DNA of 64,000 nucleotides from Azoarcus sp. Aa7. Lineage in GTDB: Bacteria > Pseudomonadota > Gammaproteobacteria > Burkholderiales > Rhodocyclaceae. The stretch covers positions 62,001 through 126,000 of the forward strand of contig NZ_QVLR01000019.1 of the NCBI RefSeq assembly GCF_014822185.1. The letters are read 5' to 3'. The notes beneath the pieces are model-generated. The model was not told the origin of the DNA. It saw only the letters and a list, made by a program, of their open reading frames with translations, and made no database searches. A program made the translations under genes and the position numbers. This document shows positions 21,083 through 37,434 of the stretch, in pieces (position 1 is the first letter of the stretch; every line of letters starts with the position of its first letter).

Positions 21083-23563
21083 ATGACCTCGTCCGATACC
21101 GCCGTTCCCGCTTCATCTCCTGCCGAGGAGTGCTACCACTGCGGACTGCCCGTCCCGCGGCAGACCCGCCACTACGTTGTGATCGACGGCGTCGAGCGGC
21201 GGATGTGCTGCGTGGGCTGCGAGGCGGTCGCGCGCTCCATCGTCGATAACGGGCTCACCGATTACTACCGGCACCGCGACGCGATGCCGGAGCCGCAAAA
21301 GGAGGCCCTGCCGGCGGAATTGCAGGAGCTCGGCCTGTTCGACCATCCCGATTTCCAGAAGAGTTTCGTCGAGCCCGTCGGCGAACACGAGCGGGAGGCG
21401 TCGCTGATCCTCGAGGGGATCACCTGCGCCGCGTGCGTCTGGCTGAACGAGCAGCACGTCTCGCGCCAGCCGGGCGTGTCGCTGGTCGACATCAATTACG
21501 CCACGCGGCGCGCGCGGGTGCGCTGGGACGAGCGCCGCACGCGGCTGTCGGACATCCTCGCGGCCATCCAGGCGATCGGTTACCGCGCCTATCCCTACGA
21601 CGCGGAGCGCTCCGAGCAGATCGCGCAGCGCGAACGTCGCTCGATGCTGTGGCGCGTGTTCGTCGCCGGCTTCGGCATGATGCAGGTGATGATGTACGCC
21701 TTCCCGGCATATGTCGCCGGGGAGGGCGACCTGACGCCCGACATCGAACTGTTGATGCGCTGGGCAAGCCTTGTGCTGACCCTGCCGGTGGTCGTGTATT
21801 CCGCGGCGCCGTTCTTCCGGCGCGCACTGCGAGACGTCAAGCTGCGCCGGCTTGGCATGGACGTGCCGGTTGCGCTGGGGGTGGGCAGCGCATTCGTCGC
21901 AAGCGTGTGGGCAACACTGACGGCGCGGGGCGAGGTGTATTTCGACTCGGTGACGATGTTCGTCTTCTTCTTGCTCTGCGGGCGCTACCTCGAAATGATC
22001 GCGCGACAGAAGGCCGTGCGCGGTGTGGAGGAGCTCGGCAAGGTCCTGCCGGCTTTCGCCGAACGGCTTCCGGGCTGGCCGTCCCTGACCGGCGAACGGA
22101 TTCCCGTCTCGCAGCTCGTGGCGGGCGACGTCCTGCGCATACGGCCGGGCGAGGTCGTTCCGGCCGACGGTGTCGTGATCGACGGGCAGAGCGAAGCCAA
22201 CGAGGCCTTGCTCACCGGGGAGAGCCTGCCGGTGCCCAAGTCGGTCGGCAGCGAGGTGACCGGGGGAAGCATCAACATCTCCAGTCCGCTTGCAATCCGG
22301 GTGGACCAGACCGGCGATTCGACCCGGCTCGCGGCGATCCGGCGACTGATGGAGCGTGCCGCAAGCGAGAAGCCGGCGATCGCCCGGCAGTCCGACAAGG
22401 TTGCCGTCGTGTTCATCATTGCGTTGCTGGTCCTGGCGAGCATCACCGGTCTGGTGTGGTATTTCGTCGATTCGTCGCGGGCCCTGTGGGTGTTCGTGTC
22501 GGTGCTGGTGGTGGCATGTCCGTGCGCCTTGTCGCTCGCGACGCCGGTCGCGCTCACGGTCGCGACCGATGCGCTGGCGCGGATGGGGGTGCTCGTGACC
22601 CGGGGGCATGCGATTGAGACGCTGGCGAACGCGAACCATTTTGTCTTCGACAAGACCGGCACCCTGACGCAAGGGCGCCTGACGCTCGAGGAAACGCTGC
22701 CGCTCGCCGATCTCGATGTCCGGCAGTTGCGGGCGATCGCAGGCGCGCTGGAGCAGTCGTCCGAGCACCCGGTCGCCCGGGCGCTGCGCCGCTCGGGCGA
22801 CGATGCGGATCTTCCCGTAGCCCGGAACCTTGCGTCGGAAACGGGCCAAGGGGTCACGGGGGCGGTGGATGGTGAATCGTACTGGCTGGGACGCCCCGAC
22901 TTCGTGGCCGGGCATCTGGGCTGCGATTTGCCGCCGAGCCTCGACGAGCTGTCGGGCCGCGGCGGCTCCGTCGTCGCTCTCGGTGGGCGGGGGCGCTGGC
23001 TGGGGCTCTTCCGCTTGGCAGACTTGCCGCGCCCGGAGGCCGGTCAGCTGACCGCTAAGCTGGCGGCCGAGGGCATCCGCACGACTGTGCTGAGTGGGGA
23101 CGCGCAGTCGGTCGCGGGGTCGATTGCGGCGCGCCTGGGGCTGGATGACGCGCATGGCGGGATGACGCCGCAGGGCAAGCGTGACTTCATAGCCGCCCTG
23201 CAGCGTGATCCGTCGGTGGTCGTGGCGATGGTCGGTGACGGCGTCAATGATGCGCCGGTCCTGGCCCAGGCCCATGTTTCGGTTGCGATGGGGGGAGGGA
23301 CCGAGCTTGCCCGCAACCAGGGCGACATCGTGCTGCTGAGCGAGAATCTGGCGGGGCTGGGGCGTGGCGTGGACCTCGCCCGGCGCACCCTGAAGGTCGT
23401 CCGGCAGAACCTGTGGTGGTCCTTCGCCTACAACTTCACCTCGGTCCCGCTCGCGATGGCGGGACTGGTCACGCCCTGGATGGCCGGGATAGGCATGGCA
23501 GGAAGTTCGCTGCTCGTCGTGCTAAATGCCCTGCGCCTGCAGGACTACCGCCGGGTAAATTGA
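21083..23563 (+). CDS. ccoI: cbb3 oxidase copper-loading P1B-type ATPase CcoI/FixI
   Basis: Heavy-metal P-type ATPase (826 aa) of the CcoI/FixI (CopA2) subgroup, which exports copper slowly for assembly of the cbb3 oxidase. Features in order: N-terminal cysteine domain with CYHCGLP and CCVGCEA; one HMA domain with GITCAACVW; eight membrane segments; the ion motif ACPCALSLATP; the phosphorylation site DKTGTLTQG; SEHP in the nucleotide-binding domain; GDGVNDAPVL. Start at 21083 (MTSSDTAVP) preferred over 21035; neither has a strong ribosome-binding site. Immediately followed by ccoS, which fixes the assignment as CcoI. Confidence 0.95.
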   Translation: MTSSDTAVPASSPAEECYHCGLPVPRQTRHYVVIDGVERRMCCVGCEAVARSIVDNGLTDYYRHRDAMPEPQKEALPAELQELGLFDHPDFQKSFVEPVGEHEREASLILEGITCAACVWLNEQHVSRQPGVSLVDINYATRRARVRWDERRTRLSDILAAIQAIGYRAYPYDAERSEQIAQRERRSMLWRVFVAGFGMMQVMMYAFPAYVAGEGDLTPDIELLMRWASLVLTLPVVVYSAAPFFRRALRDVKLRRLGMDVPVALGVGSAFVASVWATLTARGEVYFDSVTMFVFFLLCGRYLEMIARQKAVRGVEELGKVLPAFAERLPGWPSLTGERIPVSQLVAGDVLRIRPGEVVPADGVVIDGQSEANEALLTGESLPVPKSVGSEVTGGSINISSPLAIRVDQTGDSTRLAAIRRLMERAASEKPAIARQSDKVAVVFIIALLVLASITGLVWYFVDSSRALWVFVSVLVVACPCALSLATPVALTVATDALARMGVLVTRGHAIETLANANHFVFDKTGTLTQGRLTLEETLPLADLDVRQLRAIAGALEQSSEHPVARALRRSGDDADLPVARNLASETGQGVTGAVDGESYWLGRPDFVAGHLGCDLPPSLDELSGRGGSVVALGGRGRWLGLFRLADLPRPEAGQLTAKLAAEGIRTTVLSGDAQSVAGSIAARLGLDDAHGGMTPQGKRDFIAALQRDPSVVVAMVGDGVNDAPVLAQAHVSVAMGGGTELARNQGDIVLLSENLAGLGRGVDLARRTLKVVRQNLWWSFAYNFTSVPLAMAGLVTPWMAGIGMAGSSLLVVLNALRLQDYRRVN

Positions 23564-23569
23564 CCGACC

Positions 23570-23773
23570 ATGGAAAGTCTCTACATCCTCGTGCCGCTCT
23601 CGGTGGTGCTGGTGTTCGTGATCGGCGCGATCTTCTGGTGGTCGCTGCGCTCGGGTCAGTACGATGACATGGAAGGGCCCGCCTATCGCATGCTCATGGA
23701 CGACCGTGATCTGCCCGAAGGCCCGAAGCCGGAACAGTCCGAGGACACTCCCTCGCAGATCAGGAAACCGTGA
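23570..23773 (+). CDS. ccoS: cbb3-type cytochrome oxidase assembly protein CcoS
   Basis: 67-aa single-span membrane protein: MESLYILVPLSVVLVFVIG helix, then FWWSLRSGQYDDMEGPAYRML, which is the CcoS signature. Needed for incorporation of heme and copper cofactors into cbb3 oxidase. Six bases after ccoI, so in the same unit. Length is in the family range (45-75 aa). Confidence 0.95.
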   Translation: MESLYILVPLSVVLVFVIGAIFWWSLRSGQYDDMEGPAYRMLMDDRDLPEGPKPEQSEDTPSQIRKP

Positions 23774-23820
23774 TTCCCGCGGCACGGGGAATGTACCCTC
23801 CGTTCGCCGCAAAGGGTTTG

Positions 23821-23869
23821 TTGATCTACGTCAACGCCCCGGAGAAGGAGGATAGGCATACTTTTCCTA
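23821..23869 (+). promoter_or_regulatory. class II FNR-dependent promoter in the ccoS-ccoN gap
   Basis: FNR box TTGAT-CTAC-GTCAA at 23821-23834 (consensus TTGAT-N4-ATCAA, one mismatch). A -10-like CATACT at 23857-23862 predicts a start at about 23869, placing the box centre at -41.5, the standard class II spacing. Its Fnr is probably the product encoded at 36615-37355. Confidence 0.75.
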
Positions 23870-23975
23870 CGGTTTTCGAGATTGGTGCGTCGCGATTCGA
23901 TCGCGCCAATCGGGTAAGGAATTTTTGTCTCTCTGTTGGGGTTGGGGGTGCGCTTGATGCGCACCCTTTTTTTTT
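23869..23975 (+). ncRNA. candidate FNR-activated small RNA or attenuated ccoN leader
   Basis: About 105 nt from the predicted FNR-controlled start to a strong intrinsic terminator. It contains a first stem (GATTGG at 23880-23885 with CCAATC at 23906-23911, inner stem CGCGA/TCGCG), then an unpaired stretch with GTCTCTCTGTTGG, then the terminator hairpin. No open frame with a ribosome-binding site. The layout (FNR promoter, short structured RNA, poly-U terminator) is like E. coli FnrS in plan, not in sequence. Alternative: a leader whose terminator is conditionally read through into ccoNOQP. Confidence 0.55.
23946..23975 (+). terminator. intrinsic terminator upstream of ccoN
   Basis: GGGTGCGC / GCGCACCC stem (23946-23953 with 23959-23966), loop TTGAT, followed by nine T. 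It is 380 bp after the ccoI stop and 173 bases after the ccoS stop, and lies before ccoN, so it ends either ccoIS read-through or the short RNA starting near 23869. Confidence 0.9.
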
Positions 23976-24037
23976 GCCCGAAAGCATGAGCTATGATGCC
24001 GTAATTAAAACCATGCTCACAACAGGTATTTTTTGTA

Positions 24038-24082
24038 AGTGGGTATTTTCACCCACTACTGCAGTGCAATAGAATGTCGGTC
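24038..24082 (+). promoter_or_regulatory. second promoter for ccoNOQP with overlapping dyad
   Basis: -35 TTTCAC (24047-24052), 17-bp spacer, -10 TAGAAT (24070-24075), predicted start near 24082, 82 bases before ccoN. The -35 is covered by a dyad AGTGGGT-N6-ACCCACT (24038-24044 with 24051-24057), a possible regulator site. No FNR box is present here. Confidence 0.45.
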
Positions 24083-24163
24083 GTTGTCACGAGCCCGTGG
24101 CGAGCCGCTGCACATGCTCTCCCGGACTGGTGCTGAAGTTTTCTTCATCTCAAGGGGAGTTCC

Positions 24164-25588
24164 ATGCAATCGCAGGCGACTTATAACTACAACGTCGTCC
24201 GCCAGTTCTCCATCATGACCGTCGTATGGGGAGTGGTGGGCATGCTGGTGGGGGTGATCGTCGCGGCACAGCTTGTCTGGCCCGAGCTCAATCTGGGCGA
24301 GTGGCTGCATTTCGGCAGGCTGCGTCCACTCCACACGAATGCCGTCATCTTTGCTTTCGGCGGCTGTGCACTGTTCGCGACCTCGTATTTCGTCGTGCAG
24401 CGGACATGCCACACGCCGCTGTTCGCGCCCGGGCTGGCGACCTTTACATTCTGGGGCTGGCAACTGGTGATCGTGCTGGCGGCGATTTCCCTGCCGCTGG
24501 GCTTCACGTCCGGTAAGGAGTACGCCGAGCTCGAGTGGCCGATCGACATCCTGATTGCCGTCGTGTGGGTGTCCTACGCGATCGTGTTCTTCGGCACGAT
24601 CGCGAAGCGCAAGACCAGCCACATCTACGTTGCGAACTGGTTCTTCGGCGGCTTCATCCTCACGGTTGCGTTGCTCCACATCGTCAATAGCGCCGCGCTG
24701 CCGGTCAGCCTGACGAAGTCCTACTCGGCCTATGCCGGCGTGCAGGACGCGATGATCCAGTGGTGGTATGGCCACAACGCGGTGGGCTTCTTCCTGACCG
24801 CGGGCTTCCTCGGCATGATGTACTACTTCGTGCCGAAGCAGGCCGAGCGTCCGGTGTATTCCTATCGCCTGTCGGTGGTGCACTTCTGGGCGCTGATCTT
24901 CACCTACATGTGGGCGGGTCCGCACCACCTGCATTACACCGCGCTGCCGGATTGGACTCAGTCGGTGGGCATGATCTTCTCGCTGATCCTGCTGGCGCCG
25001 TCCTGGGGCGGCATGATCAACGGCGTGATGACGCTGTCGGGTGCGTGGCACAAGCTGCGCACCGACCCGATCCTGAAATTCCTGATCACCGCGCTGTCCT
25101 TCTACGGCATGTCGACCTTCGAAGGTCCGATGATGTCGATCAAGACGGTCAATGCCCTGTCGCACTACACGGACTGGACCGTCGGTCATGTGCATTCGGG
25201 TGCGCTCGGCTGGGTCGCGATGATCTCGATCGGTTCGATGTACTACCTGATCCCGCGCATGTATGGCAAGACCCAGATGTACTCGGTCGGGCTGATCAAC
25301 ACCCACTTCTGGATCGCGACGATCGGCATCGTGCTGTATATCGCCTCGATGTGGATCGCCGGCGTGATGCAGGGTCTGATGTGGCGCGCCACCAACCCGG
25401 ACGGCACGCTGACTTACTCCTTCGTCGAGAGCGTGAAGGCGAGCTATCCATTCTGGGCGATCCGCCTGGCGGGCGGTGTGATGTTCTTCACCGGCATGCT
25501 CATCATGTTTTACAACATGGTCAAGACGATGGCGGGCGAGAAGGCGTATGAGGCGCCCGTGGTCGCCCCTGCTGCCGCTCACGCTTAA
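24164..25588 (+). CDS. ccoN: cbb3-type cytochrome c oxidase subunit I CcoN
   Basis: Catalytic subunit of the high-affinity terminal oxidase (474 aa, 12 or more membrane helices). It carries the low-spin heme ligand histidine H57 in RLRPLHTNA, the binuclear-centre region [11 protein letters not shown], the CuB histidine pair in [12 protein letters not shown], and the [12 protein letters not shown] motif with the heme b3/low-spin ligands. Ribosome-binding site AAGGGGAG before the ATG. First gene of ccoNOQP; supports respiration at low oxygen. Confidence 0.98.
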
Positions 25589-29719: not shown

Positions 29720-30163
29720 TCAGCGGTAAACGAGTACGGGGGTCTTGCTGTGGGTGAGAACCTTCTGCGTCTCGCTGCCCAGGAGCAGGCCGGCGATGCC
29801 GCGGCGCCCGTGTGACGCCATGAAGATCAGGTCGCAGCCGTGGCGTTCGGCGGCGTCGATGACTGCTTCGTAAGGCACCTCGTTGACGATCGTGTCGGTG
29901 TCGGAGGCGACGCCTGCCGCGTCCGCCGCGCTTTTCGCTGCGTCGAGGATGCGTTTCGCCTCGTCGGCAGCTGCTTTGCTGAACTGTTCCGGCGTGGTGG
30001 GATCGATCAGCGCCCCTTCCCCGTATATCGGCATGGGAAAGTCGGGCTGTGCGTAGAAGAACGTGATGCGCGCACCGGCGTCCTTCGCGAAGGACACGGC
30101 ACGGGCCACGGTGCTCTCGGATAGCGGAGAGCCATCGGTGGGGACCAGTATGTGCTTGAACAT
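29720..30163 (-). CDS. universal stress protein (UspA family)
   Basis: 147-aa single-domain Usp. N-terminal MFKHILVPTDGS, and the ATP-binding motif near the end, GSHGRRG-like: ASHGRRGIAGLLLGSETQKV, followed by TKTPVLVY-type VLVYR. Start at 30163 (GGGAG upstream) rather than the frame start 30187. The promoter has a perfect TATAAT and an upstream FNR box at the class I distance, so induction at low oxygen is expected, as for Anr-controlled Usp proteins of Pseudomonas. Confidence 0.94.
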   Translation of the reverse strand: MFKHILVPTDGSPLSESTVARAVSFAKDAGARITFFYAQPDFPMPIYGEGALIDPTTPEQFSKAAADEAKRILDAAKSAADAAGVASDTDTIVNEVPYEAVIDAAERHGCDLIFMASHGRRGIAGLLLGSETQKVLTHSKTPVLVYR

Positions 30164-30190
30164 CGTGCATCTCCCAATGTTTTGCAAGGA

Positions 30191-30260
30191 CAGGTCGATT
30201 ATAGCCAGCCCGCTTGTGCGAAAGCGACGGTAACGATGTCTGGCTGTTGATTCCCGTCAA
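30191..30260 (-). promoter_or_regulatory. FNR class I promoter of the usp gene; box shared with the divergent MBL gene
   Basis: On the minus strand TATAAT occupies 30203-30198, giving a start near 30191. FNR box TTGAT-TCCC-GTCAA lies at 30247-30260, centred about 62 bases upstream (class I). On the plus strand the same box is about 42-44 bases before a possible start near 30295-30297 (weak -10 around 30285-30290) for the MBL gene, a class II distance. Confidence 0.7.
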
Positions 30261-30308: not shown

Positions 30309-31718
30309 ATGGAACTGACATTTTTCGGCGCCGCCGGGGAAGTTACAGGCTCGTGTGCGCGTCTGCACTACGACGGCGGCGCGTTTCTCGTGGACTGCGG
30401 CCTGTTCCAAGGCGGACGGGACGCGGATCGGAAGAATTTGCAGGCACTCGATTTCGACCTGCGCGGAATCGATTTCGTGCTCCTGACGCATGCCCATCTG
30501 GATCACTCCGGCCTCGTCCCGCGGCTGGTATCGCTTGGTTACAAGGGAAAGATCTACGCCACGGCGGCGACCGTGGACCTCTTGGGCGTGATGCTGCTCG
30601 ATTCGGCGCACATCATGGAAAAGGAGGCGGAGTGGATCAACCGGGGCAAGCGTCAGCGGAATGTGCGTCGCGGCTACGAGGCGGGGCCGCTGTATACGGT
30701 CAACCAGGCGCGCGCGAGCCTGGCGAGCCTGCGCAAGGTGTCGTACGGCGAAGAGCTCCATCCGCACCCGGGCGTTCGCTGCCGCTTCCATGACGCCGGA
30801 CACATCCTCGGGTCGGCGGTGATCGAGCTCGACATCGAATCGGGTGGCGCTGTGCGCAAGGTGGTGTTCAGCGGCGATCTCGGGCAGCCGACCCGACCGG
30901 TGCTCCGCGACCCCACCCCCGTGCCTGAGGCCGACTTCCTCGTTGTCGAGTCGACCTACGGCAATCGCGCTCACCGCGCGATGGCCGAAACCGAGAGGGA
31001 GCTGATCGCCATCCTGCGGGATACGCTGGAGCGCAGGAAGGGCAATGTCATCATTCCCGCGTTCGCGGTCGGCCGCACGCAGGAGATGCTGTTCGTGCTC
31101 GCGAACCTTGTGCGCCAGGGTAGGGTGGATGCGCTCGATGTCGTCGTCGACTCGCCCATGGCGTCAGCGGTAACCGAACTCACGCTGCGCTACGACGAAC
31201 TCTGGGACGACGAGACGCGCGAACTGCTGCAGTGGATTCGCGCGCACGGCGAGCGCATGCGCCTGAGATTCGTGCAGGATGTGGAAGAGTCGAAGGCGCT
31301 GAACAACGAACGTTCGGGGCTGGTGATCATCTCGGCCAGCGGCATGTGCGAGGCCGGCCGCATCAAGCATCACCTGCGCTACAACATCGACCGCAGCGAG
31401 TGCAGCGTCGTGATCTGCGGTTTCCAGGCGGCCGGTACGTTGGGCCGGCGCCTGGTCGACGGTGCCCGCGCGGTCACGCTGTTCGGCGTGCGGGTGCCGG
31501 TGCGGGCGGCGATCCACACGATAGGCGGCCTGTCCGCCCATGCCGACCAGCCGGCCTTGTTGGCATGGCTGTCGAATTTCGTGCGGCCGCCGCGGCATAC
31601 GTTTGTCGTGCATGGCGAGCAGGAAGCCGCAGCGGCACTGGCAGATGCGGTCGATGAGCGGCTGGGCTGGCCGCATGTCACGGTTCCGGTTGCGGGGCAC
31701 TGTTATAGTTTGACTTGA
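30309..31718 (+). CDS. MBL-fold beta-CASP RNA-metabolising hydrolase
   Basis: 469-aa metallo-beta-lactamase fold protein of the RNase/CPSF73-like (beta-CASP) type. Zinc motif THAHLDHSG at residues 60-68, HDAGHILGSA and SGDLG for further ligands, beta-CASP insert with PAFAVGRTQE, a SGMCEAGR motif, and GGLSAHAD plus VHGE at the C-terminus (RMMBL). Predicted exo/endonuclease acting on RNA. GGAGG ribosome-binding site. Expression probably FNR-linked through the shared box; 29 bases before phaC. Confidence 0.93.
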   Translation: MELTFFGAAGEVTGSCARLHYDGGAFLVDCGLFQGGRDADRKNLQALDFDLRGIDFVLLTHAHLDHSGLVPRLVSLGYKGKIYATAATVDLLGVMLLDSAHIMEKEAEWINRGKRQRNVRRGYEAGPLYTVNQARASLASLRKVSYGEELHPHPGVRCRFHDAGHILGSAVIELDIESGGAVRKVVFSGDLGQPTRPVLRDPTPVPEADFLVVESTYGNRAHRAMAETERELIAILRDTLERRKGNVIIPAFAVGRTQEMLFVLANLVRQGRVDALDVVVDSPMASAVTELTLRYDELWDDETRELLQWIRAHGERMRLRFVQDVEESKALNNERSGLVIISASGMCEAGRIKHHLRYNIDRSECSVVICGFQAAGTLGRRLVDGARAVTLFGVRVPVRAAIHTIGGLSAHADQPALLAWLSNFVRPPRHTFVVHGEQEAAAALADAVDERLGWPHVTVPVAGHCYSLT

Positions 31719-31747
31719 GTGTCATCGCGAGTGCAGGAGCGTCGCCT

Positions 31748-33499
31748 ATGAAGAACGGAACGACAACCAGGAAGCACGCTGCGGGCGACCCTCCGCGGTC
31801 CGTGCGGCGGGCGCTGAGAGAGATCCACGACAGCGTCGAAGGAAGTCTCGATCCGCTCGGGATGGCTGCCCCCATTGTGCATGCGCAACTCGCATGGCTT
31901 TCCCATCCCCAGGAGCTTGCGGAGCGCATGGTGGAGCTTTCGAGCGACCTGTGGCGCCTGCAATGGCATTCCACCTGTCGCGCGATGGGGCTGGTCAGTA
32001 AGGATCCGGTCGTTCCCAATGCCGATGATGCGCGCTTTTCGGATCCCGTGTGGACCGATTCGGCGACGTGGGATCTGACGAAGGAGTGGTACCTCGCATT
32101 CACGCACCACATGCAGGACATGCTCTTCGACACGCCGGGACTCTCGAGCAAGGAGCGCCGCCGTGCCGCGTTCTGGTGGCGGAAGTGGCTTAACGCTGTT
32201 GCGCCGACCAATTTCCTCTGGACGAACCCGGTCGCCATCCGCAAGGCCATCGAGACGAAGGGTGAGAGTCTCGCCAGTGGCGTGCGGAACATGCTCGCCG
32301 ACCTCGAGGCGGGCGAGATCCGCCTGAGCAGTCCGGGCGATTTCAAGGTGGGGGTGACACTCGGCACCACCGAGGGGGCGGTCGTCTTCCGCAACCGTCT
32401 GCTCGAGGTGATCCACTACGCGCCGACGCAGCCCAAGGTGCACGCGGAACCGGTCGTGATCGTCACGCCGTGGATCAACAAGTTCTACATCCTCGACCTC
32501 ACGCCGAAGAAGAGCATGGTCCGCTACCTGCTGGATCAGGGCCTGGATGTGTTCATCACGAGCTGGAAGAACCCCGATCCGTCGATGCGCGACGTCACCT
32601 TCGACAGCTATCTGGAGGACGGCGTCCACGCCATCGTCGAGACGGCACGCCGCTTCACCGGTGCGCCGAAGGTGCATGCGGTCGGGTACTGCATCGGCGG
32701 CACCGCCCTGGCGATGTACATGGCATGGGCGAACCGCCGCTTCGGCGCGGATGAGGTGCCGGTGGCGGACTGGACCCTGTTCACTACTCTGGTCGACTTC
32801 CATCGTCCGGGCGACATCGAGGTGTTCATCGATGGGGCGAGCGTCCGCTTCCTGTCGGAGAACATGGCCCGCAAGGGCTTCCTCGAAGGCAAGGAAATGG
32901 CTTCCGCCTTCCGTCTGCTCCGCTCCAACAGCCTGATCTGGCACTACGTCGTGCACGGCTGGCTGTATGGCGAGGCCCCTGCACCCTTCGACGTGCTGTA
33001 CTGGAACATGGACGCCACGCGCATGCCCTATGCGATGCATTCGTGGTACCTGCGCGAACTCTATCTCGAGAATCGCCTGATCGAGGTGGATGGGCTGACG
33101 ATATCCGGCCAGCCCATCGATCTTTCGCGCATCGTTCAGCCGCTGTATGCCGTCGCAGCCGAAGACGATCACATCGCGCCATGGGAGCAGGCGTATCGCA
33201 TCAACAATCTCGTCACCGGTCCGCGTCGTTTCGTGCTGTCGAGCTCGGGCCACATCCTCGGCATCGTCAATCCTCCGGTGAATCCGCCGAAGCGCAAGTA
33301 TTGGGCGGCGGCGGCGCGCCGCACGGACAAGGCCGACGACTGGCGCAAGCACGCGGAAGAGCATGACGGCAGCTGGTGGAACGACTGGATGGCTTGGCTC
33401 AAGCCGCGTTGCGGCACGCTCGTCGAGGCCCGCCCGGCGGCGTCCGCGGCATTTCCCGAATTGGCGAGGGCGCCCGGCCAGTACGTCCTCGAACGCTGA
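31748..33499 (+). CDS. phaC: class I poly(3-hydroxyalkanoate) synthase
   Basis: 583-aa PHA polymerase with lipase-box-like GYCIGG (residues 313-318; catalytic Cys315) and the rest of the triad in AAEDDHIAPW (Asp) and SSSGHILGIVNPP (His). N-terminal PhaC_N region with WKWF-like FWWRKWLNAV. Polymerises 3-hydroxyacyl-CoA to storage polyester at the granule surface. ATG 31748 has GGAG nine bases upstream; the frame opens at 31715. No phaA, phaB, phaR or phasin gene is adjacent; it follows the MBL gene by 29 bases. Confidence 0.95.
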   Translation: MKNGTTTRKHAAGDPPRSVRRALREIHDSVEGSLDPLGMAAPIVHAQLAWLSHPQELAERMVELSSDLWRLQWHSTCRAMGLVSKDPVVPNADDARFSDPVWTDSATWDLTKEWYLAFTHHMQDMLFDTPGLSSKERRRAAFWWRKWLNAVAPTNFLWTNPVAIRKAIETKGESLASGVRNMLADLEAGEIRLSSPGDFKVGVTLGTTEGAVVFRNRLLEVIHYAPTQPKVHAEPVVIVTPWINKFYILDLTPKKSMVRYLLDQGLDVFITSWKNPDPSMRDVTFDSYLEDGVHAIVETARRFTGAPKVHAVGYCIGGTALAMYMAWANRRFGADEVPVADWTLFTTLVDFHRPGDIEVFIDGASVRFLSENMARKGFLEGKEMASAFRLLRSNSLIWHYVVHGWLYGEAPAPFDVLYWNMDATRMPYAMHSWYLRELYLENRLIEVDGLTISGQPIDLSRIVQPLYAVAAEDDHIAPWEQAYRINNLVTGPRRFVLSSSGHILGIVNPPVNPPKRKYWAAAARRTDKADDWRKHAEEHDGSWWNDWMAWLKPRCGTLVEARPAASAAFPELARAPGQYVLER

Positions 33500-33554: not shown

Positions 33555-33568
33555 TTGACGCCTGTCAA
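33555..33568. promoter_or_regulatory. FNR/Dnr-like palindrome between convergent genes
   Basis: TTGAC-GCCT-GTCAA, a symmetric FNR-type site, 55 bases after phaC and 58 bases before the end of the Dnr-like gene. Both neighbours end here, so it is not an ordinary gene promoter; it could drive an RNA antisense to the regulator or be chance. Confidence 0.35.
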
Positions 33569-33626: not shown

Positions 33627-34313
33627 TCAGCCCTGATGGCGGGCCAGGCGGGCGGGGTTCAGCAGGGAGATGTGCTTACCGTGTACCGTGATGAGTCCGG
33701 CGTCGGACAGGTCGTGAAAGATGCGCGACAGCGTTTCGGGCGTCAGATTGAGCCGCGAGGCGATGACCTGCTTGCTGGTCGGCAAGGCGATGTCGCAGGC
33801 GCCGTCGCTTTCGCTGTCGACCTGCTGCAGCAGGTAGCCGATCACGCGCTGCATGCTCGACCGCAGCGAGTAGGTCTCGACGTCCTGGATCATGCCGTGC
33901 AGGCGGATCGCCATGCCGGCGAGGAGTTTGCGCGCGAATCCCGGATCCTGGTCGATGAGCTCGGACACCACCGCCTGGCCGATGTGCAGCAGCTGTGTCG
34001 ACGTGAGGGCTTCGGCGAAAACCGGGTAGGGACGGTTGAGGAACATTACGGCCTCGCCGAAGGTGTGCATCGGGCTGATGATCTCGACTACCTTTTCGTT
34101 GCCCTGCGCCGACGAGACCGCGAGCTTCATCTGACCCGAGACGACGTAGTAGAAGCCATGCACGGGAGCGCCGCGCTGGAACAGGATTTCGCCCTTGTCG
34201 AGGTGGCGTTCGCGGGTGAAGCGGGCAACACGGTCGATCTCCTCTGCAGTCAGTTCGCTGAAGAAAGAAACCTGGCGCAGTGCAGTGGGAATATCGACTG
34301 GACGGTTGGGCAT
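33627..34313 (-). CDS. Crp/Fnr-family regulator, Dnr-like (nitric oxide response)
   Basis: 228-aa Crp/Fnr protein without the N-terminal cysteine cluster of Fnr, so not an [4Fe-4S] oxygen sensor. The effector domain segment PVHGFYYVVSGQMKLA and FGEAVMFLNRP resembles Pseudomonas Dnr, a heme-dependent NO sensor. HTH: TSKQVIASRLNLTPETLSRIFHDL. Start at 34313 has GGAG upstream. Divergent from nnrS, which supports control of the NO response. Assignment as Dnr is by resemblance and context. Confidence 0.85.
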   Translation of the reverse strand: MPNRPVDIPTALRQVSFFSELTAEEIDRVARFTRERHLDKGEILFQRGAPVHGFYYVVSGQMKLAVSSAQGNEKVVEIISPMHTFGEAVMFLNRPYPVFAEALTSTQLLHIGQAVVSELIDQDPGFARKLLAGMAIRLHGMIQDVETYSLRSSMQRVIGYLLQQVDSESDGACDIALPTSKQVIASRLNLTPETLSRIFHDLSDAGLITVHGKHISLLNPARLARHQG

Positions 34314-34416
34314 CTCGGACTCCGTGGAGAAACCCGTGCATTTTAACCCGCAACCCGACACGGGCCGCGATCCGGCGTCCCGCAGACTGTCTCCGCTGGG
34401 GGCGACAGGAGCCAAG

Positions 34417-35640
34417 ATGCAAGCGCACGCGAAGCCGGTTTCGACCTCATTCATGCTGTTTGTCGCACCGCACCGGACAATGTTTCTGTCTGGTGCCGTG
34501 ATGCTTCTCGTGAGTTTCGCGATGTGGGCAGCGGAACTCGGCGCCCGCGCGGGGCTGCTGCCGGCGATCGGCTGGGTTCTCCCGCCGGGGTGGATGCACG
34601 CCCTGCTCGTGACGAGCGGTGTGTTTCCCTTCTTCATGTTCGGTTTCCTCCTTACCGCCATGCCGCGCTGGCAGGGCTACGACGAGATTGCGGCAGGACG
34701 CTGGCTCTGGTCCTGGCGTCTGCTGGCGGCAGGATGGGCGCTGGTCATCGTGGGCATGGTCGTGCCCGGCGTCGTCGTCCCGGGCCTGGTAATGGTGTTT
34801 GTCGGATGGGGCGGGGTGCAGCGCATCTTGTGGCAGGTCGCGCATCACGGCGACCTGGAGGCGCTGCATGCCCGCCTCGTGTGCTATGCGATGATCGCCG
34901 GAATGGCCGCCGTACTTGCCTGGCTTGGCTTTGCGCTGAGCGGCAACCCGGTCTGGGCGCGCATCGCAATCGAGATTGCAGTGTTCTGCTCGCTGCTGCC
35001 GGTGTTCTTCGGCGTGTGTCATCGCATGGTGCCGTTCTTTTCGAGCAGTGTGATCCCGGCCTACGTTATGGTGCGTCCCCTGTGGGTACTGGTGCTGGTC
35101 GTCGGCGGAAGCGTCGTGCATGCTGCGCTCGACGTGGCGGGATGGCTGTCGCTGCGCTGGATCGTCGACGCTCCCGCCGCCTTTGCGGCCCTGTGGCTGT
35201 CGCGGCAGTGGAGGCCGGTGCCGGCCATGAAGGTGCCGCTGCTGGGGATGCTGCACATCGGTTTTCTCTGGCTCGGAATCGCGCTGACTCTCTTCGCCAT
35301 CCAGGGGGGCGCGTCCCTGCTGGGCTACAGCGTGCTGGGCATGGCGCCGCTGCATGCGCTGGGCGTCGGATTCTTCGGCTCCGTCCTGATGGCGATGGTG
35401 TCGCGGGTCACCCTCGGACACTCGGGCCGCAAGCTCGCTGCGGATCGCCTGACCTGGGCGCTGTTCCTCGGTCTCGAGGCGGTCGTCGTCGTGCGCATTG
35501 TCGCGGAACTCGTTCCCGCGGGCGGGTCGGCGATCGTCATGCTGCTGGCCGTGCTCGGCTGGCTGGGCGTGTTCGGCGCGTGGGCGTCGCGCTACCTGCC
35601 GATCTACTGGCGTCCGCGCAGCGATGGACGCCCAGGCTGA
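34417..35640 (+). CDS. nnrS: NnrS family protein
   Basis: 407-aa heme/copper membrane protein with about 12 helices that relieves nitric oxide stress. Visible family features: FPFFMFGFLLTAMPRWQ, GVCHRMVPFFSSSVIP, GVGFFGSVLMAMVSRVTLGHSG. Starts at ATG 34417 (AGGAG upstream), not at the frame opening inside the regulator. Head of an nnrS-sirB2-hemerythrin unit with a six-base gap and then a 4-base overlap. Regulation by the divergent Dnr-like protein is likely, although I found no clear TTGAT-N4-ATCAA site in the 103-base gap. Confidence 0.93.
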   Translation: MQAHAKPVSTSFMLFVAPHRTMFLSGAVMLLVSFAMWAAELGARAGLLPAIGWVLPPGWMHALLVTSGVFPFFMFGFLLTAMPRWQGYDEIAAGRWLWSWRLLAAGWALVIVGMVVPGVVVPGLVMVFVGWGGVQRILWQVAHHGDLEALHARLVCYAMIAGMAAVLAWLGFALSGNPVWARIAIEIAVFCSLLPVFFGVCHRMVPFFSSSVIPAYVMVRPLWVLVLVVGGSVVHAALDVAGWLSLRWIVDAPAAFAALWLSRQWRPVPAMKVPLLGMLHIGFLWLGIALTLFAIQGGASLLGYSVLGMAPLHALGVGFFGSVLMAMVSRVTLGHSGRKLAADRLTWALFLGLEAVVVVRIVAELVPAGGSAIVMLLAVLGWLGVFGAWASRYLPIYWRPRSDGRPG

Positions 35641-36614: not shown

Positions 36615-37355
36615 TCAGGGGCGCGGCGACGGGGGCTGGATCAGCCGCTTCAGGCCGACGATGTCCAGGATGCGGATGTGCTTCTGCTGCACCGCGATCA
36701 GGCCCTCGTCCTGGAATTTCGAAAAGGCACGCGACACCGTTTCGAGCTTCAGGCCGAGATAGGAGCCGATCTCCTCGCGGGTCATGCGGAGGTGGAACTC
36801 TGCCGGCGAGAAGCCGCGCGCCGTAAAACGCTGGGACATGTTGAGCAGGAAGGCCGCCAGGCGTTCTTCCGCCCGCATGGAGCCGAGGAGGGTCATCACG
36901 CCATGGTCGCGCACGATTTCGCGGCTCATCACCTTGTGGAACTGCAATTGCAGGCCCTCGACCACGCGCGACAGCTCTTCGAGCTTGCTGTACGCGATCA
37001 CGCAGACTTCGCTGTCCTCCAGCGCGATCGCGTTGCACGAATGGGCTTCGGTGCTGATGCCGTCGAGGCCCAGCATCTCGCCGGTCATCTGGAAACCGGT
37101 AACCTGCTCGCGCCCGTCCTCGAGCAGCACGTCGGTCTTGAACGAGCCGGCGCGGATCGCGTAGATCGCTTCGAAGGGATCGCCCGCGCGATACAGATGC
37201 TGTTGCCGCTTGATCTTGCGACGCGCGCCGACGAGTTCGTCGAGACGGTCGATTTCCGATTCCGACATCCCGAACGGCAGGCACAGTTCGACCAGATTGC
37301 ACTGGGAACATGCGACCTTCAGACTCGCAACTGTAATCGGCACCGTCGCCTTCAT
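36615..37355 (-). CDS. fnr: Fnr/Anr oxygen-sensing transcription regulator
   Basis: 246-aa Crp/Fnr regulator with the [4Fe-4S] ligands C16, C19 and C25 (C-x2-C-x5-C) and C107, in the same pattern as E. coli FNR. The HTH ESS-type recognition helix is in LGLKLETVSRAFSKFQ (E..SR contacts TTGAT). ATG 37355 assigned; a GTG six bases earlier (37361) has better spacing to a GAAGGA. Divergent from hemN with an FNR box between, suggesting autoregulation. Likely master of the three FNR boxes in this window. Confidence 0.95.
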   Translation of the reverse strand: MKATVPITVASLKVACSQCNLVELCLPFGMSESEIDRLDELVGARRKIKRQQHLYRAGDPFEAIYAIRAGSFKTDVLLEDGREQVTGFQMTGEMLGLDGISTEAHSCNAIALEDSEVCVIAYSKLEELSRVVEGLQLQFHKVMSREIVRDHGVMTLLGSMRAEERLAAFLLNMSQRFTARGFSPAEFHLRMTREEIGSYLGLKLETVSRAFSKFQDEGLIAVQQKHIRILDIVGLKRLIQPPSPRP

Positions 37356-37420
37356 TTGCACGATAATATCGTTCCTTCTACATCGACCGAGAAGTGGCAG
37401 GCGTCCGGCGGAATGGACCG

Positions 37421-37434
37421 TTGATCCACGTCAA
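37421..37434. promoter_or_regulatory. FNR box between fnr and hemN
   Basis: TTGAT-CCAC-GTCAA, same half-sites as the boxes at 23821 and 30247. At the class II distance it predicts a hemN start near 37469, at or just inside the first possible hemN codon, and an fnr start near 37386 on the other strand. Could serve both genes. Confidence 0.7.

Follow-up and report, generated by a model that had tools for sequence, protein, structure and literature searches.

FnrS is an FNR-activated small RNA (sRNA) of enterobacteria. The available part of one report names sodB, marA and grxD among its targets (PMC10993149). In betaproteobacteria, AniS of Neisseria is made under oxygen limitation, and its targets were called 'elusive' in 2017 in the extract available of PMC5362039. 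S17/bdhR1 of Bordetella is a betaproteobacterial sRNA linked to Hfq, in which a conserved C/U-rich stretch pairs near ribosome-binding sites; the accessible passages of the report also describe the S17 core as conserved in Aromatoleum aromaticum and call RF02278, the 'Betaproteobacteria toxic sRNA', related to S17 (PMC11722255).

The locus considered here is the gap between ccoS and ccoN at a cbb3 oxidase locus, within the window, i.e., the whole 64,000-nucleotide stretch of DNA that was analysed. Only two tRNAs in the window reach their Rfam cut-off, and no other family does. FnrS gives no Rfam row around the gap up to E 5 (23500-24300) or up to E 1 (23860-23990), and the scores of AniS (RF02274, 17.6 bits), SorX (RF02784, 27.6 bits) and SorY (RF02651, 25.5 bits) at the locus do not meet the respective cut-offs of 50, 46.6 and 111 bits. 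S17 was compared via RF02278, not through the S17 sequence itself. RF02278 (cut-off 50) yields 15 matches up to E 10 in the own genome, i.e., the genome of the window, none of which lies on the contig holding the ccoS-ccoN locus (C19). Six copies are above the cut-off, on contigs C6 and C28, and possess the core GTCTCCTCCACCCTCCTCC or a close variant. Membership of the ccoS-ccoN RNA in S17/bdhR1 was rejected because these copies are located elsewhere and carry a different core, and the two appear to be different RNAs. No description of the ccoS-ccoN RNA was found in the full-text literature among the matches listed, with most subscription papers outside the search, and the passages available of PMC6456745 and PMC10987360 contain nothing on it. 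The preliminary description of this DNA had known of no account of such an RNA at this locus, which holds with respect to Rfam families at cut-off (besides tRNAs) and to the literature matches listed.

Architecture of the ccoS-ccoN Gap

The same description had reported an FNR box at -41.5 from a predicted start, followed by a folded 5' stem, a C/U-rich stretch and an intrinsic terminator with an 8-bp stem and nine T. The box, the -10 hexamer and the implied start at 23869 were confirmed at this spacing (Table 1). The terminator was recovered by its coordinates and by a terminator scan, which lists it with 10 pairs when G-T is allowed. The 5' stem corresponds to a hairpin in a stretch (23860-23978, 119 nt) with a folding z of -3.3, for which 0 of 200 shuffles are equally stable. 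The C/U-rich stretch exists as well, but it is only part of the conserved piece, as the core continues as GTTGGGGTTGGGG.

Table 1. Coordinates and identification of the locus features, candidate targets and related elements
Feature	Position or locus	Strand	Remarks
ccoS	23570..23773	+	upstream neighbour; NCBIfam TIGR00847, 72.2 vs cut-off 28.35 bits
FNR box TTGATCTACGTCAA	23821..23834	+	exact; centre at -41.5 relative to the implied start
-10 hexamer CATACT	23857..23862	+	spacing from the FNR box puts the box at -41.5
proposed sRNA transcript, ~107 nt	23869..23975	+	5' end deduced from the spacing of the promoter, 3' end from the terminator; no transcript data
5' hairpin of the RNA	23880..23911	+	sequence varies among genera, folding kept
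pairing core TCTCTCTGTTGGGGTTGGGG	23928..23947	+	23930-23943 invariant in 52/52 aligned rows
intrinsic terminator	23946..23975	+	8-bp stem 23946-23953/23959-23966, then T9 23967-23975
ccoN	24164..25588	+	downstream neighbour; NCBIfam TIGR00780, 783.5 vs cut-off 583.15 bits
fnr (likely activator gene)	36615..37361	-	NCBIfam NF008365, 249.3 vs cut-off 228 bits
alpha/beta hydrolase	own genome		core-complement site before start
acetaldehyde dehydrogenase	own genome		site before start; TIGR03215, 468.7 vs 282.25 bits
BoxD	own genome		site before GTG start; NF008868, 819 vs 444 bits
glutathione-transferase-like protein	own genome		core-complement site before start
YfhL-type ferredoxin	own genome		site 33 nt upstream of start, before ribosome-binding site; follows gene read as korB
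ferredoxin element	L002 1500-1575; also L062, L063, L065-L070		Aromatoleum
TusE/DsrC family	L265		above curated-model cut-off; perfect 18-nt complement
AhpF	L254		above curated-model cut-off
NifS	L255		above curated-model cut-off
phasin	L253		above curated-model cut-off
IspH	L381		above curated-model cut-off; Aromatoleum search, shorter pattern
formate dehydrogenase gamma	L401		above curated-model cut-off; Aromatoleum search, shorter pattern
glutathione peroxidase	L399, L405		above curated-model cut-off; Aromatoleum search, shorter pattern
Fe-superoxide dismutase	L263		best match below cut-off, 293.7 vs 348 bits
aconitase B	L271		fragment
ThiC	L382		fragment; Aromatoleum search, shorter pattern
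WrbA-like	L256		best match, below cut-off or fragment
NifB-like	L282		by domains
RF02278 copies	C6 100254-103926 (L483-L485, L487, L488); C28 9110-9175 (L486)		five within 4 kb on C6

The window contains four exact boxes of the form TTGAY-N4-RTCAA, where 200 single-base shuffles contain 0.025 on average. The fnr gene is itself inside the window, about 13 kb from the sRNA gene, and a gene for Hfq is present in the own genome.

Apart from the box in the gap, exact FNR boxes are found at 37421-37434, between fnr (minus) and hemN (plus; NCBIfam TIGR00538), at 30247-30260, upstream of a universal-stress-protein-like gene (29720-30187, minus), and at 33555-33568, in the gap of the convergent genes 31715-33499 (plus) and 33627-34661 (minus), the latter of which encodes a Crp/Fnr-type regulator.

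Conservation Across the Rhodocyclaceae

For comparison, the genus was taken as Aromatoleum and the family as Rhodocyclaceae in the wide sense, both of which are inferred. A 201-base query was searched against 121 genomes, comprising 17 of the genus (own genome included), 56 of other genera of the family and 48 from the rest of the order. It matches 59 of the 121 genomes, i.e., 17/17 in the genus and 42/56 in the other family genera, while 0/48 genomes from the rest of the order match. The 59 loci span 43 genera, with CcoS upstream in 58 (more than 1.2 kb away in L028 and L053) and CcoN downstream in 55, none being found in the DNA examined around L020, L037, L048 and L053. An exact FNR box is located within 230 nt upstream of the core in 58 of the 59 loci (the exception is L028), and in 55 of these 58 the box start is followed, at a distance of 35 or 36 nt, by a -10-like hexamer. 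The core alignment consists of 52 of the 59 loci, with seven congeners omitted, and exhibits 14 consecutive invariant positions, TCTCTGTTGGGGTT, just before the terminator. The terminator stem covaries: five of its eight pairs are changed on both sides (21 cells), with a score that none of 500 shuffles attains. In all 59 loci, the stem is followed by six or more T in a row, and compared to single-base shuffles, the 5' part of the RNA is more stably folded (z < -1) in 49 of the 55 loci of testable length. The preliminary description had called for covariation analysis and would have been refuted by a lack of conservation of box, stem and terminator in related genomes; conservation was found instead across the 59 loci, with the exact box in 58 of them.

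A covariance model of the core and terminator extends this distribution, matching 249 of 297 family genomes at E <= 0.001 and 231 of 297 at E <= 1e-8, the latter tally being made by hand; only part of the matched loci were inspected. Core matches in named genomes amount to at least 117 stretches, of which 80 were examined, showing the terminator in 79, the exact box in 76 and ccoN no more than 700 nt from the core match in 67, with several of the misses at contig ends. One of these 80, L142, is a target-like site and not an sRNA gene. When 300 genomes of the order were searched, three genomes outside the family reached E <= 1e-8 (G472, G491 and G368). G472 and G491 belong to other families, perhaps through misbinning, and have a copy at their cco loci. 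The match in G368 (E 2.5e-11) was rejected as a copy of the RNA because the core is missing and the 3-kb locus holds no cco gene; the weaker matches outside the family were mostly terminators or partial.

The neighbourhood of ccoN raises the question of whether the transcript is merely a leader of the cbb3 operon (ccoNOQP), in which case a transcript started by FNR would either stop at 23975 or read through into ccoN. This had been the second possibility in the preliminary description. The T run is 188 nt from ccoN on the same strand, and 11 of the 17 Aromatoleum loci, i.e., the window's clade, have no second exact FNR box before ccoN, so that read-through could contribute there. However, a second exact FNR box is located between the terminator and ccoN in 42 of the 59 loci, and 30 of these 42 boxes have their own -10 at 35-36 nt, suggesting that ccoN has its own FNR promoter. 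Furthermore, conservation is highest in the sequence preceding the terminator and not in an alternative stem, the stem and T run are kept in 59/59 loci, and the core complement is enriched at distant gene starts, as described below. The leader is disfavoured and was rejected as the main reading, being judged improbable, but read-through cannot be ruled out in the clade to which the window belongs.

In the Aromatoleum clade without the second FNR box, an inverted repeat around TGGGTATTTTCACCCA (window 24038-24057) is conserved before ccoN, and likewise the string GTGCAATASAATG (window 24064-24076). These are perhaps the operator and promoter of another regulator.

It was further considered that the gap encodes or overlaps a small protein. 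The earlier statement that no open frame fits has to be qualified for the window itself, where minus-strand frames and a 100-codon GTG frame (23770-24072, plus) cross the RNA; among the nearest relatives of the window, a fragment of the GTG frame remains uninterrupted over the length of the RNA. However, with its 54-codon fragment examined in 20 loci, the plus frame proved to be diverged or interrupted by stop codons in the other relatives. A closed frame within the RNA is absent from 33 of 58 loci, and the 58 loci compared have no short internal frame in common. Since the plus frame is not kept beyond the nearest relatives and no short frame is shared, the coding reading was rejected and is considered very unlikely, although only the plus strand was compared.

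Complementary Sites at Gene Starts

An sRNA acting in trans through its conserved core would be expected to find complementary sites in mRNAs. The core complement, with a prefix disfavouring sRNA genes, was searched as the target pattern in 297 family genomes. It gives 69 matches in 64 genomes, 17 of which are sRNA genes, leaving 52 sites; 60 of the 69 matches were examined, eight of them flagged as sRNA genes, and the other nine were placed at sRNA loci by coordinate or identical flank. The controls for the 52 sites are 11 matches with the reversed pattern and 20 with the permuted pattern. An ATG frame of at least 80 codons starts no more than 40 nt after the site in 39 of the 52 cases, compared to 6 of 20 for the permuted control (Fisher p 0.0008), and the ATG is 4-20 nt from the site in 32 of these 39. 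Target prediction against ribosome-binding sites had been proposed earlier as a check, and the pattern search shows complementary sites close to start codons. This proximity is partly expected because AGAGA within the target sites resembles a Shine-Dalgarno sequence; the permuted control, which keeps the 3' part, reaches the 6/20 given above.

The sites also co-occur with the RNA. Among the 231 genomes that have the RNA, 46 contain such a site, compared to 2 of the 66 in which the RNA is missing or weakly matched (p 0.0005), whereas the permuted pattern is found in 17 of 231 versus 3 of 66 (p 0.58), both by hand tally. These enrichment tests treat related genomes as independent and ignore shared ancestry, and the strict pattern finds no site in 185 of the 231 RNA-bearing genomes. 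The co-occurrence bears on another possible role, namely that the conserved sRNA mainly titrates Hfq, another protein or another sRNA, and does not pair with mRNA. Rich in G and nearly invariant, the core might serve as a protein-binding motif, and it is conserved over more positions than any single target requires. However, the complementary sites both accompany the RNA across genomes and sit at start codons, and titration is considered quite unlikely as the main function, compared to pairing with mRNA.

In the own genome (5.39 Mb), CCCCAACAGAGA with at most one mismatch has seven matches: the sRNA, one tRNA-like stretch (by reading) and five sites 12-33 nt before start codons. These five sites have duplex energies between -29.5 and -35.9 kcal/mol, which 0 to 3 of 300 permuted cores equal; because the sites were picked by match, the energies are descriptive and constitute no test. 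A permuted 12-mer has eight matches, two of them near a start, and the difference in start proximity is not significant in the own genome alone (5/6 versus 2/8, p 0.10). Across the 17 Aromatoleum genomes, there are 139 matches, including 17 to the sRNA, compared to 66 for the reversed control (hand sums). Among the 122 non-sRNA matches, 104 were examined, and in 80 of these a frame of 60 codons or more has a start codon no farther than 45 nt away, which is a lax criterion. The site is carried by boxD leaders at 8 loci in 8/17 Aromatoleum genomes, by acetaldehyde dehydrogenase leaders at 8 loci in 7/17 and by the glutathione-transferase-like gene at 6 Aromatoleum loci. Four of the boxD loci and one acetaldehyde dehydrogenase locus were assigned from the leader, the automatic ATG being in the wrong frame.

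The ferredoxin is not obviously an aerobic gene, and its site, which is farther upstream, might act differently from the others. In 9 of the 17 Aromatoleum genomes, an element consisting of a hairpin and a near-perfect complement of the 3' half of the sRNA precedes the ferredoxin gene, and it resembles the end of the sRNA, copied in inverted orientation and now part of an mRNA. The second BLAST match in the own genome (C107) was also considered as a paralogue of the sRNA. This was rejected, as the match is antisense to the mRNA in the korB-ferredoxin gap and lacks a T run and an FNR box; a target or an inverted copy is the better interpretation.

Across the family, the majority of the target families turned up in a single genus or in few genera. 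Eleven of the family-wide sites, in three genera (g11, g42 and g2), belong to TusE/DsrC-like genes, ten of them identified by reading translations. The target-like site L142 mentioned above, probably from the same genome as L265, is also a perfect complement to the core. The AhpF sites (L254 and L289) are more than 70 nt from the start. The matches at NifS, NifB-like and ThiC genes do not fit a list of purely 'aerobic genes', and several matches inside coding sequence are plausibly chance sites.

The sodB set was found by protein search and not by the pattern (66 of 76 genomes; 30 loci examined, one without a recognisable start). Excluding the pattern-found leader and one from outside the family, 27 sodB leaders were tested. 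Their mean duplex energy with the core is -23.7, compared to -17.1 (sd 1.8) with permuted cores and -20.1 with the reversed core, and 0 of 300 permuted cores pair as well on average. Taken singly, most leaders surpass shuffles by a small margin only, many come from congeners, and two leaders from genomes without the RNA (G043 and G021) pair about as well as the rest.

Proposed Function

What is observed at the locus, i.e., the box, its spacing, the conservation, the covariation and the complementarity with its enrichment, leads to the first possibility of the preliminary description, an FNR-activated sRNA, for which the box, -10 spacing, core and terminator are conserved family-wide and the target sites adjoin start codons. 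The features looked for, namely an FNR-type promoter of its own, a terminator of its own, a conserved core and complementary sites at start codons, are all present on sequence evidence. With high confidence, the ccoS-ccoN gap is predicted to carry a trans-acting, probably Hfq-dependent sRNA of FnrS-like logic, which would repress via pairing of its core. This reading is well supported by comparison, but not by experiment.

When oxygen falls, FNR would bind its box and, as an activator at -41.5, would drive the transcript of about 107 nt from its start to the terminator (Table 1). The RNA would act in trans, capped by the variable 5' hairpin, with the nearly invariant core UCUCUGUUGGGGUU(G/C)GGG as the putative seed. 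The terminator and U tail are the usual Hfq-binding end, and Hfq would probably hold the U tail. Together with Hfq, the core may pair with CCCCAACCCCAACAGAGA-like sites overlapping or just upstream of ribosome-binding sites and block translation, above all of genes needed with oxygen. Predicted candidates in Aromatoleum are boxD (aerobic benzoyl-CoA degradation, box pathway), acetaldehyde dehydrogenase and the glutathione-transferase-like protein, plus the ferredoxin, and candidates elsewhere in the family may include SodB, AhpF, TusE/DsrC and Fe-S proteins. The RNA probably turns down oxygen-related genes when oxygen is scarce. In the absence of expression data, FNR dependence, the transcript ends, Hfq binding and repression are all inferred.

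Members of the Rhodocyclaceae such as Aromatoleum, Thauera, Azoarcus, Dechloromonas, Accumulibacter and Zoogloea are important in denitrification, phosphorus removal and anaerobic aromatic degradation, and they switch between oxic and anoxic conditions. A wider proposal, to which we give even chances of being right or wrong, is that an undescribed family-wide riboregulator at the cbb3 oxidase locus is the post-transcriptional oxygen switch of the Rhodocyclaceae, in which one near-invariant core silences the aerobic degradation of aromatics (box pathway, acetaldehyde dehydrogenase), the defence against superoxide and peroxide, and sulfur-relay genes, the targets being rewired from genus to genus and the core frozen. 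The control of benzoate genes is attributed to transcription factors such as BoxR and BzdR in the available passages of PMC6449761, which make no mention of 'FNR' or 'small RNA'. A conserved sRNA with an FNR promoter able to reach boxD, sodB, ahpF and other genes would add a post-transcriptional layer, and its core, promoter and list of targets can be tested right away.

Comparison with Known Systems

AniS resembles the ccoS-ccoN RNA in its terminator with a U tail. SorX and SorY of the alphaproteobacterium Rhodobacter have CUCYCUGUUGG before a GC-rich terminator in common with the window (23900-23972); whether this reflects homology or convergence is unsettled, and these two RNAs differ in being named for singlet oxygen resistance. 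The likeness to FnrS is that sodB is also a predicted target of the ccoS-ccoN RNA, by predicted pairing only. In contrast to FnrS, the ccoS-ccoN RNA has another core, another gene position and another host group, and its predicted targets in Aromatoleum include aromatic-degradation genes.
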